Source: Nocardiopsis alborubida
GTDB taxonomy: Bacteria > Actinomycetota > Actinomycetes > Streptosporangiales > Streptosporangiaceae
Assembly (NCBI RefSeq): GCF_012396365.1
Contig: NZ_JAAXPG010000024.1
Span: 1 to 64,000, forward strand
Direction of reading: 5' to 3'
Length of the DNA: 64,000 nucleotides
Shown here: positions 45,911-53,035 of the stretch, in pieces
How positions within the stretch are numbered: position 1 is the first letter of the stretch
Layout: each line of letters begins with the position of its first letter
The notes under the pieces: generated by a model
Database searches by the model: none
The model's input: the letters and a program-made list of their open reading frames with translations, nothing else
What the model was told of the DNA's origin: nothing
Translations under genes and position numbers: made by a program

Positions 45911-47125
45911 TCAGCGGGCGGGGAGGATCCTGCCGGTCACCTCGCCGAAGTGCACGGTGGTCCCGTCCGGCCCCGGCGCGGTGGCGGTGATGGTCACCTC
46001 GTCGCCGTCCTCCAGGAAGGTGCGCTCGGTGCCGTCGGGCAGGCTCAGCGGCTCCTTCCCGCTCCAGGTCAGCTCCAGGAAGCACCCCCGCTGCCCGCGT
46101 TCGGGGCCGCTGACCGTGCCGGAGGCGTACACGTCCCCGGTGCGCAGGGACGCCCCGTTGACGGTCATGTGCGCGAGCTGCTGGGCCGCCGTCCAGTACA
46201 TCTGCGAGAACGGCGGTGTGGAGACCAGGTGCCCGTTCAGCCGCACCTCCAGGCGCAGGTCCAGGCCCCCGGGCCCGCTCCCCCGCAGGTAGGGCAGCGG
46301 CTCGGGGTCCTGGGCGGGCTGCTCCACACGCGCGGACTCCAGCGCGGCCAGCGGCACGATCCACGGCGAGACCGACGTGGCGAACGACTTGCCCAGGAAC
46401 GGCCCCAGCGGCACGTACTCCCAGGCCTGGAGGTCGCGCGAGGACCAGTCGTTGAGCAGGAACACCCCGAACACGTGGTCGGCGAAGTCGTCCACCGCGA
46501 CGCGCTCGCCCATCTCGGTTCCGGTCCCGACGACGAAGCCCACCTCGGCCTCGATGTCCAGGCGGACCGAGGGCCCGAAGACGGGAGCGGGCTCGGTCGG
46601 CGGCTTGCGCTGGCCGGTGGGGCGCACGATGTCGGTCCCCGAGACCACGATGGTGCCCGAACGCCCGTGGTAGCCGATGGGCAGGTGCTTCCAGTTGGGG
46701 GTGAGGGGCTCCTGGTCGGGCCGGAACATGCGGCCGACGTTGCTGGCGTGGTGCTCGGAGGCGTAGAAGTCCACGTAGTCGGCGACGGTGAAGGGCAGGC
46801 GCATGCGCACGGACGCCCGGTCCACCAGGTGCGGGCGCACGGCCTCGGCGCGCGCGGGGTCGGTGAACCAGTCGGTGAGAGCGGCGCGCACCTGGTCCCA
46901 CACCGGCCGTCCGGCGGCCAGCAGGGCGTCCAGGCTGGGCCGGTCGACGGTGTCGGCGAAGGGCGCGTCCAGGGCGCGGGCCGCGGCCCCCAGGTCCAGG
47001 ACGTGGTCGCCGACGGCCACACCGGTGCGAGGCGCGGGATCGTCGTCGGTGCCGAACACGCCGTAGGGCAGGGTGGCCAGGCCGAACTGCGCGTCCGGGG
47101 CGAGGTCGAGCCAGCTGTCGGGCAT
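45911..47125 (-). CDS. fahA: Fumarylacetoacetase
   Basis: A 404-residue fumarylacetoacetate hydrolase, the last step of tyrosine/homogentisate breakdown (fumarylacetoacetate to fumarate plus acetoacetate). Both parts of the enzyme are present: N-terminal SH3-like domain (~1-105) and the catalytic FAH domain with DFYASEHHASNVGRMFR, PIGYHGRSGTIV, EAEVGFVVG and NDWSSRDLQAWEYVPLGPFL, which hold the metal and catalytic Asp/Glu/His residues. Full family length. Last gene of the leftward operon, separated from the preceding gene by 143 bp of degenerate repeats. Ribosome site weak. Confidence 0.96.
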   Translation of the reverse strand: MPDSWLDLAPDAQFGLATLPYGVFGTDDDPAPRTGVAVGDHVLDLGAAARALDAPFADTVDRPSLDALLAAGRPVWDQVRAALTDWFTDPARAEAVRPHLVDRASVRMRLPFTVADYVDFYASEHHASNVGRMFRPDQEPLTPNWKHLPIGYHGRSGTIVVSGTDIVRPTGQRKPPTEPAPVFGPSVRLDIEAEVGFVVGTGTEMGERVAVDDFADHVFGVFLLNDWSSRDLQAWEYVPLGPFLGKSFATSVSPWIVPLAALESARVEQPAQDPEPLPYLRGSGPGGLDLRLEVRLNGHLVSTPPFSQMYWTAAQQLAHMTVNGASLRTGDVYASGTVSGPERGQRGCFLELTWSGKEPLSLPDGTERTFLEDGDEVTITATAPGPDGTTVHFGEVTGRILPAR

Positions 47126-47135
47126 GGCGTTCGCT

Positions 47136-47250
47136 TTCTTGGAGTGGACGGTTTCTCGAAGCGGGGGGCTCGTGAGGCGGTCGGGTTCTGGAGCGAGCAG
47201 GTTCTCGGAGCGGGCGGAGCCCTGAAGCGGGCAGGTCCTTGAGCGGACAG
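47136..47250. repeat. Degenerate tandem 16-18-nt repeats in the operon gap
   Basis: Five or six imperfect units of the form GTTCT-GGAGCGGGCAG (e.g. GTTCTGGAGCGAGCAG, GTTCTCGGAGCGGGCGG, GTCCTTGAGCGGACAG on the plus strand) fill the space between the 47269 gene and fahA. They are not coding in either gene frame. Purpose unknown; may affect mRNA folding or stem from slippage. Confidence 0.65.
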
Positions 47251-47268
47251 GCCCCGGGACCGGAGGCT

Positions 47269-48117
47269 TCAGCGGGCGCGGGAGGCGGGCAGCGCCCCGA
47301 GCACGACCAGGTCCTCCAGGGGCTCGGTGACGCTGCACGTGCCGAAGGAGCGGAACCGGCCGCGCACCCGCTCGATCTCCTCGTCGGTGAGCTTGGCGGC
47401 CAGGGCCGCCAGGCGAGGGCCGTCGCGGTCGGCCAGCACGAGGGCGGCCTCCCGTTCGGAGACCCCGTCGAGCAGGGCCGCGGTGGCCAGCAGCACGTTG
47501 AGGAAACCGTGCTGTTCGAAGCCCTCGGCGGTGGTGTGGCGGACGGCGTGGTGGAGCCCGGCCGTGCACTTGAAGGGCACGTCCAGCTCCACGGCCGCGT
47601 GCAGGAACTCGGCCAGCTCCTCCTCGCTGGGATGGGCCTCGGCGGTGAGGCCCCCGGTGCGGAACTTGGCGCTGTGGCCGGTGCCCGCCAGGGACCGCAG
47701 TTCGGCGGGCACGTCCCCCTGGCGGGAGACCTCCACGAACCCCTCGGCTCCCTCGGGCAGGTGCTCGGTCAGCCGCGCGGCGGCCTCGGCGGCCGTCCCG
47801 GGCGCGGCGGCGGCCTCCACCCCGGCCAGGCGCAGCGCCGGGTCGGCGGTCGCGGCCGCCACGGCGGGGGCGATCCCCTCGGCGCCGCCGGGGACGGTGA
47901 CCACGACCGCGAGCGGGCCGTGGCCCGTCTCCTCACGCGCCAGGACTGCGCTCAGTTCGCCCACGCGGGCGTCGGAGACCAGGAACGGGCCGACGTACTC
48001 GGCGCGCGGTCCGGCCCGGTGGGCGCGGTGGGCGGGCAGCGCCCCGCCCATGGGGGCGTTGCCGGGCGGGAAGAGCGCGGCGTCGTCGAACAGGCCGCGG
48101 TACAGCAGCGCGCTCAC
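47269..48117 (-). CDS. Uncharacterised protein of the homogentisate operon
   Basis: A 282-residue cytoplasmic protein whose GTG overlaps the hmgA stop (GTGA), so it is co-translated with homogentisate dioxygenase. Notable conserved-looking parts: FDDAALFPPGNAPM at the N-terminus, AEYVGPFLVSDARV, a central alternating beta/alpha pattern suggesting a TIM-like barrel, HSAKFRTGG, and VPFKCTAGLHHAVRHT followed by HGFLNVLLATAALL. Lys, Cys and the HH pair are candidate active-site residues. I do not recognise a named family. Position between the dioxygenase and fumarylacetoacetase, with no maleylacetoacetate isomerase in the operon, makes an isomerase or related role a reasonable guess only. Confidence 0.85.
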   Translation of the reverse strand: MSALLYRGLFDDAALFPPGNAPMGGALPAHRAHRAGPRAEYVGPFLVSDARVGELSAVLAREETGHGPLAVVVTVPGGAEGIAPAVAAATADPALRLAGVEAAAAPGTAAEAAARLTEHLPEGAEGFVEVSRQGDVPAELRSLAGTGHSAKFRTGGLTAEAHPSEEELAEFLHAAVELDVPFKCTAGLHHAVRHTTAEGFEQHGFLNVLLATAALLDGVSEREAALVLADRDGPRLAALAAKLTDEEIERVRGRFRSFGTCSVTEPLEDLVVLGALPASRAR

Positions 48118-49322
48118 CGGCGCTCCCTCCGTCCCCCGGCCCAGGTCCAGGCGTAGGTTCCGTCGTCGCTGGCCAGGCCGCCCTCGCCCAGGTCGAGCGG
48201 GCGGAAGGTGTCGACCATGACGGCGAGTTCGTCGAAGGCCTCGGCGCCGATGCTGCGCTCGTAGGCGCCGGGCTGGGGTCCGTGGGAGTGACCGCCGGGG
48301 TGCAGGGAGATGGAGCCCTGGCCGATCCCCGATCCCTTGCGGGCCTCGTAGTCGCCCCCGCAGTAGAACATGACCTCGTCGGAGTCCACGTTGGAGTGGT
48401 AGTAGGGCACCGGGATGGCGCCGGGGTGGTAGTCCACCTTGCGCGGCACGAAGTTGCAGATGACGAAGTTGTGGCCCTCGAACACCTGGTGCACGGGCGG
48501 CGGCTGGTGGACGCGGCCGGTGATGGGCTGGAAGTCGGCGACGTTGAAGACGTAGGGGTACAGGCACCCGTCCCAGCCCACGACGTCGAAGGGGTGGGTG
48601 GGGTAGGTGTAGCGGGTGCCGGAGATGCCCCCGGGGCCGTCGCCGCGGTGCTTGATGAGCACGTCGACGTTCTCTCCCTCGGCCAGCAGCGGCTCCGAGG
48701 GCCCGCGCAGGTCGCGCTCGCAGTAGGGGGCGTGCTCCAGGAACTGCCCGTAGCGGGACAGGTAGCGCTTGGGCGGGGCGATGTGGCTGTTGGCCTCCAC
48801 CGCGTAGGCGCGCAGGGGCTGGTCGCCGGTGGGCACCCAGCGGTGGGTGGTGGCGCGCGGCAGGATGACGTAGTCGCCCCGGCCGACCTCCAGCAGGCCG
48901 AAGACGGTCTCCACGCGGGCGGTGCCCGACTCCACGTACACGCACTCGTCGCCGATGCCGTTGCGGTACAGCTCGGAGGGCGCCCCGGCGACCACGTAGG
49001 AGATGCGCACGTCGTCGTTGCCCAGGACCAGGCGGCGCGACTCGACGACGTCGGCGGCCTTCCACTCCTGGTCGGAGAAGAGGTCGTGCAGCTTCAGGTG
49101 GCGGGGCACCATCGGGGCGTTGCGGGTGCGGGTCTGGTCGGGGACCTCCCACTCGGCGGCGTCGACGATGGCCGAGGGGATCGCGCGGTGGTAGAGCAGC
49201 GAGGAGTCGGCGGAGAAGCCCTCCTCCCCCATCAGCTCCTCGTAGTACAGGCCGCCCTCGGGGGTGCGGTGCTGGGTGTGGCGGGTGCGGGGCACCTCGC
49301 CGACCTGGCGGTAGTAGGCCAT
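48114..49322 (-). CDS. hmgA: Homogentisate 1,2-dioxygenase
   Basis: A 402-residue ring-cleaving dioxygenase that converts homogentisate to maleylacetoacetate with O2 and Fe(II). Seen: N-terminal RTRHTQHRTPEGGLYYEELM, cupin-like core RLVLGNDDVRISYVVAGAP, LPRATTHRW, and the C-terminal iron-site region HQVFEGHNFVICNFVPR, DYHPGAIPVPYYHSNVDSDE and LHPGGHSHGPQPGAYE with the expected His/His/Glu ligands. Slightly shorter than the ~435-residue human/Pseudomonas forms and typical of actinobacterial ones. Starts 36 nt after the FAD hydroxylase stop. Confidence 0.96.
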   Translation of the reverse strand: MAYYRQVGEVPRTRHTQHRTPEGGLYYEELMGEEGFSADSSLLYHRAIPSAIVDAAEWEVPDQTRTRNAPMVPRHLKLHDLFSDQEWKAADVVESRRLVLGNDDVRISYVVAGAPSELYRNGIGDECVYVESGTARVETVFGLLEVGRGDYVILPRATTHRWVPTGDQPLRAYAVEANSHIAPPKRYLSRYGQFLEHAPYCERDLRGPSEPLLAEGENVDVLIKHRGDGPGGISGTRYTYPTHPFDVVGWDGCLYPYVFNVADFQPITGRVHQPPPVHQVFEGHNFVICNFVPRKVDYHPGAIPVPYYHSNVDSDEVMFYCGGDYEARKGSGIGQGSISLHPGGHSHGPQPGAYERSIGAEAFDELAVMVDTFRPLDLGEGGLASDDGTYAWTWAGGRRERR

Positions 49323-49358
49323 GGCGGTGTTGTCCCTTCCGTGTGGAGTGGGTCCGGG

Positions 49359-51092
49359 TCAGGCGGTCGGGGCGGGTTCGTCGCCGCGCGGGTCGGGGGC
49401 GGCGGCCGCGGGACGCGCCGCCGTGGGAACCGTCGTGGCCGGAGCGAACCCCAGCGCGGTGCGCACGGCCGCGCGCACGGCGTCGGGGTTAGCGCCCGCG
49501 ACGACGGCGGCGACGTGGGCGTCGGGGCGCACCAGCCACACCTGTCCCGGTTCGGGGGCCAGTGCCCTGGTCAGCGCGCCGTTGGTGTCGATCCGGTCCA
49601 GGTACAGGGCGGTGACGGGCGCCGGGGTGACCCCGCGCGCGGCGGCGCGCACGCCCTCCAGGAACGCGTCGGGGTCGGTGCCGTCGGGGGCGGCGCCCAC
49701 CAGCAGGGTCAGGCCCTCGCGCAGCAGGGGGCGCAGGCGCGCGGGGGCGTCGGCGCCGGACAGGTCGCCGGACAGGTCGACGGGGGCGTCGGGCAGGACC
49801 ACCCCGGGACAGGGGGCGGGGGCCCGGCCGCGCGGGGGCCTGCCGCCGAAGGGCCGCTCGGGGCAGGGCGTGGTCAGGGACGAGTCGGTGTACCAGAAGG
49901 GTTCGGCCAGGCGCCCGGAGTCGACCCGGGTGCGGGCCGCCTCCTCGGTGAGGGCCGCTTCGAGCACGGCCAGGCGGGTGCGGTGCTCCTCCTCGTCCTG
50001 GGGGACGAGGAAGCGCATGGTGGCGCTGGTGACGTCGGCGTTCTCCAGGGCTGCGGCGTGGCGCTCGGCGTGGTAGCTCTCCAGGAGTTCATCGCCCGCC
50101 CATCCGGCCAGGACGTAGGCGATCTTCCAGGCGGCGTTCTCGGCGTCCTGGACCCCGGAGTTGAGGCCGCGGGCGCCGAAGGGGGCGACCAGGTGGGCGT
50201 TGTCGCCGAGCAGCAGGACTCGGCCCGCGCGCATGCGTTCGGCCACACGGGTGTGGAACCGGTAGACCGAGTGCCAGACGATCTCGTAGGGCCGCTCGCC
50301 GATGATCTGGCGGATGCGGGCCTCCAGTCGGCCGCTGGACTCCTCGGCGTCGAGGTCGAAGTCGGAGGGCACCTGCCAGTCGATGCGGTACACCGAGTCG
50401 GGGCAGGGGTGGATGAGCACCTGGCGGCCGGGGTTCCACTCGGGGTCGAAGTAGAAGCGGCGTTCGCGTTCCCATCCGGCGAGGTCGGCGCGGATGTCGC
50501 AGATGAGGAAGCGGTCGTCGAAGGTGGTGCCGTCGAAGGACAGGCCCAGGGCCTCGCGGACCACCCCGCCGTGGGCGCCCAGGCACGACAGCGCGTGGGA
50601 GCCGCGCAGGCGGACGGGCCCGTCGGGGGTGCGGCACTCGACGGTGACGCCGCGCGCGCCCTGGGAGAGGCCGGTGACCCGGTGGTTCCACAGGGTGCGC
50701 ACCCCGGCGGCGGTCAGGCGCTCGTCCAGGACCTGCTCGGTGCGGGACTGGGAGATGTTGACGAACGGCGGCAGGGGCGAGGCGCCCGGGTCGGGGAGGC
50801 GGACGGTGAACAGCTCGCTGTCGCGGTAGAAGGTGCGGGCGGTGTCCCAGGTCAGCCCTTCCTCGGCGATCCGCCCGGCGCCGAGCCAGTCCCAGACGTC
50901 GAGCACGTCGCGCTGCTGACAGATGGCCTTGGAGCCGACGGCGTCGCGTTCGGGGCGTGCGTCCACGACCAGTACGGGGACGCCCCGCCGGGCCAGCAGC
51001 AGGGCCGCGGTCTGGCCGACCGGGCCCGCGCCGAGCACCAGGACGGGGTCGGCGGCGGTGTCCGCGGGAGTGCGTGGAGCGGGGGGTCGCAT
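49359..51092 (-). CDS. FAD-dependent aromatic hydroxylase
   Basis: A 577-residue class A flavin monooxygenase: VLGAGPVGQTAALLLARRG (FAD/GxGxxG, ~18-36), DG/GD motif RVLLLGDNAHLVAPFGARGL (~285-305) and QDAENAAWKIAYVL; the C-terminal ~170 residues form the thioredoxin-like domain seen in MhpA/phenol hydroxylase types, with a Pro/Ala tail. Because it precedes hmgA in one operon, the simplest role is para-hydroxylation giving homogentisate, for example from 3-hydroxyphenylacetate; an MhpA-like or resorcinol-type hydroxylase is the alternative. Confidence 0.88.
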   Translation of the reverse strand: MRPPAPRTPADTAADPVLVLGAGPVGQTAALLLARRGVPVLVVDARPERDAVGSKAICQQRDVLDVWDWLGAGRIAEEGLTWDTARTFYRDSELFTVRLPDPGASPLPPFVNISQSRTEQVLDERLTAAGVRTLWNHRVTGLSQGARGVTVECRTPDGPVRLRGSHALSCLGAHGGVVREALGLSFDGTTFDDRFLICDIRADLAGWERERRFYFDPEWNPGRQVLIHPCPDSVYRIDWQVPSDFDLDAEESSGRLEARIRQIIGERPYEIVWHSVYRFHTRVAERMRAGRVLLLGDNAHLVAPFGARGLNSGVQDAENAAWKIAYVLAGWAGDELLESYHAERHAAALENADVTSATMRFLVPQDEEEHRTRLAVLEAALTEEAARTRVDSGRLAEPFWYTDSSLTTPCPERPFGGRPPRGRAPAPCPGVVLPDAPVDLSGDLSGADAPARLRPLLREGLTLLVGAAPDGTDPDAFLEGVRAAARGVTPAPVTALYLDRIDTNGALTRALAPEPGQVWLVRPDAHVAAVVAGANPDAVRAAVRTALGFAPATTVPTAARPAAAAPDPRGDEPAPTA

Positions 51093-51181
51093 CTGGTGGC
51101 TCCGTTCGGCGTGGGACGCCCCGTACGGGCGTGGGAGGGGTCGGGAATCGGTGGGCGGGGCGGCGGGGCGGCCGCGGCGGG

Positions 51182-52144
51182 TCAGCCCTGGAGCTGGTCC
51201 CAGACCTCGCGGTCGCGCTCGGCGGTCCAGATGACCGGGCGCTCGATGCCGGAGAACTCGTCCCACAGGCGGGAGACGTCGAAGGGCAGGCAGTGCTCGA
51301 AGATGGGCCAGTGGCCGTAGTCGTCGACGAGGGCGGCGTGGGTGGCCTCGAAGGCCTCCTTGAGGGTGCCGCCGCGTCCGTGGACGGCGCCGACCTCGCG
51401 GATCATGACGTCGAGGAAGCCGCGGGTCTGCTCGATGGCGGCGTCGACCTCCTCGCGGCCGCGGCTGACCGCGCCGCGCCCGCCGACGAGCATCTCGGCT
51501 TCCAGGGCCTTGACCCCGTCCAGGGTGGCCCCGGCCCAGTCGCGGTGGAAGGCGTCGCCCGTGTAGAGGGCGGCCTGGGCCTCGACGAGGTCACCGGCGA
51601 AGAGGATCCTCTGCTTGGGCAGCCAGGCGACGATGTCGCCCTCGGTGTGGCCGCGGCCGAAGTACTGCAGGACCAGCTCGCCGCGGTCGCCGCCCAGGTC
51701 GATGGTGGTGCGGTCGGCGAAGGTCTGGGTGGGCCAGGTCAGCCCGGGCACGGAGTCGGCGTCCTTGGCCAGACGGGGCATGCGGGCGAACTCGCTGGCC
51801 CAGTCCTCCTCGCCGCGCTCGCGGATGAGCTCGTGGGTCTTCTCGTGGGTCAGGATGATCTCGGCGTCGAAGGCGCTCGCGCCCAGGACGCGGACCGCGT
51901 GGTAGTGCGAGAGCACCAGGTAGCGGATCGGCTTGTCGGTGTGCTCGCGCAGCTTGGCGAGCCACTCCCCCGCGGCGGCGGGCGTGGCCAGGGCCTCGAA
52001 GGCCACGACGAAGTCCTCGCCCTCGATGGCGCCCACGTTCGGGTCGCCCTCGGCGGTGAGGGCGTAGACGCCGTCGGCCAGGACCTCCAGGGTCTGCTCC
52101 TTGGCCTCGGTGTCGGCGGATGAGGCGAACGGCTTGGCTGCCAT
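51182..52144 (-). CDS. MBL-fold protein with altered metal motif
   Basis: A 320-residue metallo-beta-lactamase-fold protein, first gene of the homogentisate operon. Where the family normally has HxHxDH it reads SHYHAVRVLGA (residues ~80-90), so the Asp-His pair of the second metal site is replaced by Val-Arg. Later positions GRGHTEGDIVAW and FAGDLVEAQAAL retain His and Asp ligands. Related sequences occur as unnamed MBL hydrolases in aromatic-degradation clusters. It may hydrolyse a lactone or thioester upstream of the hydroxylase, with one metal, or may be a non-canonical enzyme. Regulated from the MarR-facing promoter region. Confidence 0.88.
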   Translation of the reverse strand: MAAKPFASSADTEAKEQTLEVLADGVYALTAEGDPNVGAIEGEDFVVAFEALATPAAAGEWLAKLREHTDKPIRYLVLSHYHAVRVLGASAFDAEIILTHEKTHELIRERGEEDWASEFARMPRLAKDADSVPGLTWPTQTFADRTTIDLGGDRGELVLQYFGRGHTEGDIVAWLPKQRILFAGDLVEAQAALYTGDAFHRDWAGATLDGVKALEAEMLVGGRGAVSRGREEVDAAIEQTRGFLDVMIREVGAVHGRGGTLKEAFEATHAALVDDYGHWPIFEHCLPFDVSRLWDEFSGIERPVIWTAERDREVWDQLQG

Positions 52145-52494: not shown

Positions 52495-52501
52495 GACCGG
52501 C

Positions 52502-53035
52502 GTGACCCACGACACCGCCCCCGAACTCACCTTCTGGTCCTTCGTGGACTACGCGGTGCGGAAGGCCGAGCAGGAACTGCCCTCCGTGAACGCCGACGCC
52601 ATGCGGATGGTCCTGACCCTCAGCCGGGCGACGAACATGGTCGTCTACGACCTGGAGTCGTCCGTGCACCGCCCGCGCGGGCTCACCTGGCCCGGGTTCC
52701 GGGTGATCTTCGCGCTGTGGCTGGCCGGTCCCATGGAGGCCAAGACCACCGCCGAGATCTCAGGGATGAGCCGGGCCGCGCTGTCCGCGCTGCTCAACAC
52801 CCTCGAACGCGACGGGCTCATCGTGCGCGAGCGCGCCGCCCACGACCGGCGCGCCCTCCAGCTGAGCCTCACCGAGGCCGGGTACCGGGCGATCCTCGGC
52901 GGTTTCCGGGCGCACAACCGGCGCGAGAGCGCCTGGGCCGAGGCCCTGGAGCCCGACGAGCGCCGGGAACTCGTGCGCCTGCTCAACAAGCTCATGGCCG
53001 GCTCCACCGAGGCCGAGGCCAAGTTCCGCATCTGA
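52502..53035 (+). CDS. MarR-family regulator
   Basis: A 177-residue winged-helix regulator: ALSRATNMVVYDLESSVHRP-like dimer helix, RGLTWPGFRVIFALWLAGPM, recognition helix region MSRAALSALLNTLERDGLIV and wing RERAAHDRRALQLSLTEAG, all diagnostic of MarR. It faces the homogentisate operon across a region with a palindrome and a CRP-like site and is probably its aromatic-responsive repressor. Confidence 0.93.
   Translation: MTHDTAPELTFWSFVDYAVRKAEQELPSVNADAMRMVLTLSRATNMVVYDLESSVHRPRGLTWPGFRVIFALWLAGPMEAKTTAEISGMSRAALSALLNTLERDGLIVRERAAHDRRALQLSLTEAGYRAILGGFRAHNRRESAWAEALEPDERRELVRLLNKLMAGSTEAEAKFRI

Follow-up and report, generated by a model that had tools for sequence, protein, structure and literature searches.

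A predicted TIM-barrel protein family as a candidate maleylacetoacetate isomerase in bacterial homogentisate gene clusters

A homogentisate gene cluster with an unnamed gene between hmgA and fahA

We analyzed the first 64,000 nucleotides of contig NZ_JAAXPG010000024.1 of Nocardiopsis alborubida (hereafter, the window), in which five genes on the minus strand encode an MBL-fold protein, an FAD hydroxylase, homogentisate 1,2-dioxygenase (hmgA), a protein of 282 amino acids (aa) and fumarylacetoacetase (fahA) (Table 1). An earlier note, made from the sequence of the window, had described this layout and guessed that the 282-aa protein is an isomerase other than a glutathione S-transferase (GST). 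The coordinates confirmed the layout, including the 4 nt (GTGA) in which the stop of hmgA overlaps the beginning of the 282-aa gene; fahA begins 143 nt after the 282-aa gene. Judging from its sequence and gene context, we consider it likely that the 282-aa protein is a maleylacetoacetate isomerase. It would convert the maleylacetoacetate made by HmgA to fumarylacetoacetate, which FahA would then split. The case rests on gene linkage, co-occurrence, the absence of the isomerase MaiA, the predicted fold and residue conservation, from which we infer the activity, its independence of thiols and the mechanism.

FahA of the window was a strong equivalog match to TIGR01266 (463.9 bits; cut-off, 375.3). 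HmgA was divergent, scoring 50.8 bits against TIGR01015, far under the cut-off of 510.75. It passed the gathering scores of both Pfam HgmA families, its top match in the Protein Data Bank (PDB) was a homogentisate 1,2-dioxygenase (3zds, E = 3.9e-8), and it was 46% identical to a Priestia protein annotated as homogentisate 1,2-dioxygenase.

Table 1. Genes of the homogentisate locus, with positions in the window
Feature	Position	Strand	Basis or remark
fahA, fumarylacetoacetase	45911..47125	-	TIGR01266; PDB relatives are fumarylacetoacetases
282-aa member of an unnamed family, predicted to be a maleylacetoacetate isomerase with a TIM barrel	47269..48117	-	GTG start
hmgA, divergent cupin homogentisate 1,2-dioxygenase	48114..49322	-	PF20510 and PF04209; PDB 3zds
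FAD aromatic hydroxylase, probably 3-hydroxyphenylacetate 6-hydroxylase (MhaA-like)	49359..51092	-	PF01494; NF006002 over cut-off
MBL-fold hydrolase	51182..52144	-	PF00753
MarR-family regulator, divergent (start inferred)	about 52499..53035	+	PF01047 and PF12802

Sequence searches place the 282-aa protein in a large family without a name

Neither the 282-aa protein nor any of 28 diverse sequences aligned with it gave a convincing match in Pfam or NCBIfam. Searches of PDB sequences with the single protein and with the 29-row alignment also gave no useful match. Thus, the match to a characterized family with another function, which the earlier note had named as grounds for abandoning its guess, was not found in these three collections. 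Matches to CbiZ (1 of 29 members, E = 0.00043), STAR_dimer and an ammonium transporter were isolated and weak, and were rejected. A first homologue search scored 3,876 of 8,000 candidates as relatives, and a search with a broader alignment scored 6,139 of 8,000; 120 rows were listed from each. Among the matches listed, most of the named rows were hypothetical proteins, and two UniRef names in the first search were transaldolase. One of 120 listed homologues (P0056) carried a precomputed PF00694 assignment and the remaining 119 carried none. By sequence, the 282-aa protein thus belongs to a large unnamed family with thousands of bacterial relatives.

With regard to known isomerases, the 282-aa protein matched no GST family in Pfam or NCBIfam and did not match TIGR01262, the family of zeta-class GST isomerases, and GST membership was rejected. 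BLASTP against MaiA encoded on a Peteryoungia plasmid gave E = 3.2, indicating no sequence relation. The DinB-type family PF11716 (MDMPI) was matched neither by the protein nor by its alignment, and DinB membership was likewise rejected. The 282-aa protein is therefore unrelated to both the zeta-class GST and the DinB-type isomerases. Further, it matched neither TIGR00126 (DeoC) nor the transaldolase families of Pfam and NCBIfam.

The 282-aa gene is linked to fahA and hmgA in Actinobacteria

The gene-neighborhood survey that had been proposed was carried out on the best 80 of 491 confirmed places in genome contigs, a set that consists of Actinobacteria, as judged by their titles, and is biased to close relatives. 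In 76 of the 80 loci, fahA began no more than 1.2 kb downstream of the 282-aa gene and on its strand, with a gap of at most 225 nt when extrapolated to the first FahA residue. On the other side of the 282-aa gene, hmgA was present within 1.5 kb in 73 loci (same strand in 61, divergent in 12). The order hmgA, 282-aa gene, fahA on one strand thus recurred in 61 of 80 loci, and the arrangement in the window is therefore not due to chance. All seven genomes in which hmgA or fahA was missing from the flanks of the locus still held fahA over the cut-off. A Rhodococcus ruber genome (locus L061; not strain Chol-4) had hmgA, the 282-aa gene and fahA. In three Kitasatospora loci (L034, L038 and L051), neither hmgA nor fahA accompanied the 282-aa gene, and fahA was at another place in the genome; the 282-aa gene was near an amino acid transporter-like gene (by search in L034, by eye in the other two) and, by eye, a GDSL-like lipase gene.

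Because the 80-locus set was biased to close relatives, we searched an even sample of 296 Actinomycetota genomes. The 282-aa family was present in 15 genomes, fahA over the cut-off in 29 and both in 14 (Fisher p = 3.3e-15). By coordinates, the 282-aa gene adjoined fahA in 13 of the 15 positive genomes, 14 of which had an HmgA match of either type. Three (G045, G086 and G162) possessed a canonical, not a divergent, hmgA, indicating that the 282-aa gene follows the step after HmgA and not the type of dioxygenase. The cluster of the 282-aa gene also encoded 4-hydroxyphenylpyruvate dioxygenase (HPPD) over the cut-off in G045 and G057.

The family occurs in other phyla and on plasmids

In a set of 72,556 plasmid records, in which fahA was called at E <= 1e-30, the 282-aa family was present in 24 (Streptomyces, 11; Priestia, 6; Pseudonocardia, 2; Rhodococcus, 2; and Nonomuraea, Tsukamurella and Kovacikia, 1 each). 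In all 24, fahA was directly downstream, in 23 by coordinates (same strand, within about 130 bp) and in Kovacikia by sequence. The family therefore spans Actinomycetota, Bacillota (Priestia) and a cyanobacterium (Kovacikia), and is not confined to actinomycetes, the group that the earlier note had considered. The Kovacikia cluster included HPPD over the cut-off, a divergent HmgA and, alongside, an acetoacetate-CoA-ligase-like gene that was below the cut-off. The Priestia operon comprised hppD, the 282-aa gene, fahA, an aminotransferase gene annotated hisC, homogentisate 1,2-dioxygenase and an amino-acid permease. Apart from an isomerase, this operon covers the whole route from tyrosine to fumarate and acetoacetate, and the 282-aa gene is its sole unassigned enzyme gene. 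The order on a Streptomyces plasmid was dioxygenase, 282-aa gene, fahA and two CoA-transferase subunits. In total, fahA was called in 119 plasmid records; most, largely Proteobacteria among the rows listed, lacked the 282-aa family.

The low-molecular-weight thiol is mycothiol in actinomycetes, bacillithiol in Bacillota and glutathione in cyanobacteria. Since the hosts of the family differ in this respect, a requirement for one particular thiol is unlikely, and a 282-aa isomerase would probably need none of the three.

We also considered another candidate for the isomerase gene, an enoyl-CoA hydratase-like gene next to fahA that has been termed mai in Rhodococcus opacus strain R7 and in BCP1; the 282-aa protein would then be something else. 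In the sections of PMC4591350 on this cluster, hmgA is AII08874.1, fahA is AII08876.1 and mai is the enoyl-CoA hydratase-isomerase AII08877.1. However, this numbering skips AII08875.1 between hmgA and fahA and, judging from its place in the accession series, AII08875.1 is probably a member of the 282-aa family. Further, fahA is followed by an alpha/beta hydrolase gene in the window, by an aminotransferase gene in Priestia and by a CoA transferase gene on the Streptomyces plasmid. The identification of ech as mai was rejected as a general answer, and we give this explanation hardly any weight.

No MaiA over the cut-off in the positive genomes tested, and maiA in place of the 282-aa gene in Peteryoungia

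The plasmid of Peteryoungia, an alphaproteobacterium, encoded maiA, a MarR regulator, hmgA, fahA, an MBL-fold protein and an FAD monooxygenase. These are the gene kinds of the window in a different order, with maiA replacing the 282-aa gene. The FAD, MBL and FahA proteins of the two clusters were 40-49% identical; hmgA of Peteryoungia was canonical (24% identity over 260 residues to HmgA of the window).

MaiA over the cut-off was detected in none of the 38 positive genomes tested, representing 38 of the 80 loci (weak GST-like matches in 1), and in none of the 296 genomes of the even sample (weak matches in 52). In the window's genome, a search confined, among GST families, to TIGR01262 and GST_N_3 gave no match at E <= 0.001. 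Glutathione synthase over the cut-off was found in none of the 15 positive genomes, with weaker matches in 6. Thus, in the absence of MaiA, the 282-aa gene accompanies those for homogentisate dioxygenase and fumarylacetoacetase, although not everywhere, as 15 of the 29 fahA genomes lack it. Taken together, its association with fahA, its standing as the counterpart of maiA in the Peteryoungia cluster and its status in Priestia give good contextual support to the non-GST isomerase that had been guessed.

The predicted fold is a TIM barrel with conserved residues at the strand ends

The earlier note had asked whether the protein is a TIM barrel or a new fold. The AlphaFold model is a confident TIM (beta/alpha)8 barrel (pLDDT, 95.2). 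Its nearest fold according to VIA-align was deoxyribose-phosphate aldolase (DERA); because the Foldseek matches were weak (best E = 1.3e-4, to dihydropteroate synthase; TM about 0.4-0.5), the likeness to DERA derives from VIA-align. Comparison of the family with DeoC using hhalign gave no significant match in any setting (best E = 0.068), and the local match covered just the region of the strand-7 lysine. The likeness is thus one of fold, with neither a family match nor a significant profile match, and membership of DeoC was rejected.

Conservation was assessed using 320 rows (listed matches and loci), among which near-duplicates remain; these rows exclude exact duplicates, sequences shorter than 240 or longer than 480 aa, the fragments L102 and L103, and a diverged relative in genome G258 (L187). 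Near-invariant residues were D11, E101, E129, K151, R153, K183, H189, R193, H203, N207 and C261. In the model, the near-invariant Lys, Glu, Arg, His and Cys residues sit around the ends of the barrel strands; K151 belongs to strand 6 and K183 to strand 7. As the catalytic lysines of DERA are on strands 6 and 7, the two may correspond by strand.

These residues suggest how an isomerase might work. R153, K151, K183 and R193 would bind the substrate and polarize its oxo group, a group of the enzyme would attack the cis-enone, the C2-C3 bond would turn and the trans isomer would leave. The attacking group may be the near-invariant Cys261, as an intraprotein counterpart of the glutathione used by MaiA, or Lys151 or Lys183 via a Schiff base, as in the aldolase of the nearest fold; we regard the two covalent mechanisms as about equally probable. 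The fuller proposal, which we favor with some reserve, is that this large, undescribed TIM-barrel family would be a maleylacetoacetate isomerase free of a thiol cofactor, acting by covalent catalysis through Cys261 or a Schiff-base lysine and standing in for the glutathione-dependent one across Actinomycetota, Bacillota and cyanobacteria, whose low-molecular-weight thiols differ.

An alternative function for the 282-aa protein would be that of a lyase, such as a Schiff-base aldolase, with a product of the route as its substrate. However, the established homogentisate route ends in fumarate and acetoacetate and has no aldolase step, and the DeoC comparison and the searches for DeoC and transaldolase families were negative, as described above. 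We consider such an activity very improbable.

Genomes without the family and the possibility of another isomerase

Several observations weigh against an isomerase function of the 282-aa protein. In the even sample, 15 of the 29 genomes with fahA over the cut-off lacked the family; eight of these, all of one genus (g3), had a canonical hmgA and no MaiA match. In G235, G031, G017 and G200, hmgA adjoined fahA without the 282-aa gene, as it did in G214, where FahA was just under the cut-off. Another isomerase, or uncatalyzed isomerization, must therefore suffice in such genomes. Dinoroseobacter had the same gene set as Peteryoungia with neither maiA nor the 282-aa gene beside it, and hmgA and fahA on plasmids of Paracoccus and Limimaricola were adjacent to neither gene. 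Conserved residues were lost in members close to fahA: K151, H189 and C261 in the G057 member (L101 and L206, one gene), which is in a cluster with HPPD, hmgA and fahA; R193 and H203 in the Kovacikia protein; and more than in the G057 member in the G258 relative, which is upstream of fahA. Further, the profiles did not tie the family to aldolases.

The G057 member and the G258 relative are natural tests of which residues matter. In g3 genomes such as G023 and G128, a long distance separates canonical hmgA from fahA, and neither a MaiA match nor a member of the 282-aa family was found. Inspection by eye of 20 regions (15 from the 29 fahA genomes), together with Pfam searches of 7 neighbors, yielded no consistent isomerase candidate in fahA genomes without the 282-aa gene, and inspection of the hmgA neighborhoods of 4 of the 8 g3 genomes likewise yielded none.

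The earlier note had also allowed that an isomerase gene elsewhere in the genome might overturn its guess. With respect to MaiA and GST_N_3 no such gene appeared; with respect to DinB-type proteins the matter is less clear, as the window's genome has seven DinB/MDMPI (MDMPI_N) matches, which likewise count against the assignment. A mycothiol-dependent isomerase may therefore be encoded elsewhere. According to this explanation, a DinB-type mycothiol- or bacillithiol-dependent enzyme, or spontaneous thiol-catalyzed isomerization, would perform the step, and the 282-aa protein would be ancillary, removing a side product or helping FahA. Two of the matches, possible mycothiol-dependent enzymes, are close together on the contig of the window (C17; about 73.7 and 75.4 kb), 10-11 kb past the end of the window. 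Of 129 fetched loci, 3 contained relatives of the genome's DinB genes. In two Nocardiopsis loci (L017 and L022), close relatives of the second C17 gene were 4.6-8 kb from the 282-aa gene; in L192, the genome of which lacks the 282-aa gene, the distance to fahA was some 6 kb. The 15 of 29 fahA-bearing genomes that manage without the 282-aa protein also fit this explanation. In contrast, tblastn found no relative of these DinB genes in the other 126 loci, a search that would miss distant DinB proteins; the family occurs in phyla that use mycothiol, bacillithiol and glutathione; and no other step of the Priestia operon lacks a gene. We therefore consider an ancillary role unlikely and retain the isomerase assignment.

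Comparison with known isomerases and significance

MaiA/HmgC (zeta-class GST, TIGR01262) has the same place in the pathway and occurs with the same gene kinds in Peteryoungia. The 282-aa protein differs in having no sequence relation to it, a predicted TIM barrel instead of the thioredoxin-like and helical GST fold, and no expected need for glutathione. The DinB-type mycothiol-dependent maleylpyruvate isomerase (PF11716) acts in the actinomycete gentisate pathway, where its cis-trans reaction is analogous; the 282-aa protein has no PF11716 match and a different predicted fold. DeoC/DERA (TIGR00126) shares the TIM (beta/alpha)8 barrel with the 282-aa model, whereas identity is 11-20% and the gene context is different. 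Maleate cis-trans isomerase, which belongs to another superfamily, isomerizes without a thiol cofactor via a cysteine adduct, the chemistry of one of the two mechanisms proposed for the 282-aa protein.

Glutathione-independent breakdown of homogentisate in Gram-positive bacteria was reported decades ago. In searches of open-access literature, we found no assignment of the 282-aa protein. Rhodococcus ruber Chol-4 grows on homogentisate, and the legend of its cluster gives hmgR, hmgA, hmgB, ech and acs; genC is named there as mycothiol-dependent maleylpyruvate isomerase (excerpts of PMC6498646). HmgA and HmgB were detected in R. globerulus on phenylalanine or 2-hydroxyphenylacetate, with no isomerase named in the corresponding excerpts of PMC11889516. 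Thus, in the portions of these reports and of PMC4591350 concerned, the isomerase gene of Rhodococcus is left nameless or its name is given to a neighboring gene.

If the assignment is correct, it would fill a gap in tyrosine and hydroxyphenylacetate catabolism, provide a function for thousands of unnamed proteins (6,139 scored) and add an unrelated fold to EC 5.2.1.2. Further, such an enzyme could aid the engineering of aromatic catabolism without glutathione.

Neighboring genes in the window and the probable upstream substrate

HPPD over the cut-off was not found in the window's genome, and the upstream substrate is therefore probably 3-hydroxyphenylacetate. In a 322-residue alignment, the FAD hydroxylase had 40% identity to the FAD monooxygenase encoded in the hmg cluster of Peteryoungia. 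Alphaproteobacterial hmg genes, too, occur with an FAD monooxygenase, an MBL-fold protein and a MarR regulator, which suggests a 3-hydroxyphenylacetate 6-hydroxylase. In Burkholderia xenovorans, mhaA adjoins hmgABC (excerpts of PMC3053370) and, by analogy with this linkage, 3-hydroxyphenylacetate is probably the substrate of the FAD hydroxylase. The best NCBIfam match of the MarR regulator was HpaR, under the cut-off. The MBL-fold protein was 46-48% identical to those encoded in the Peteryoungia and Dinoroseobacter hmg clusters; an MBL-fold hydrolase recurs in alphaproteobacterial hmg clusters that also bear the FAD monooxygenase. As a guess, its step is perhaps the hydrolysis of homogentisate lactone.
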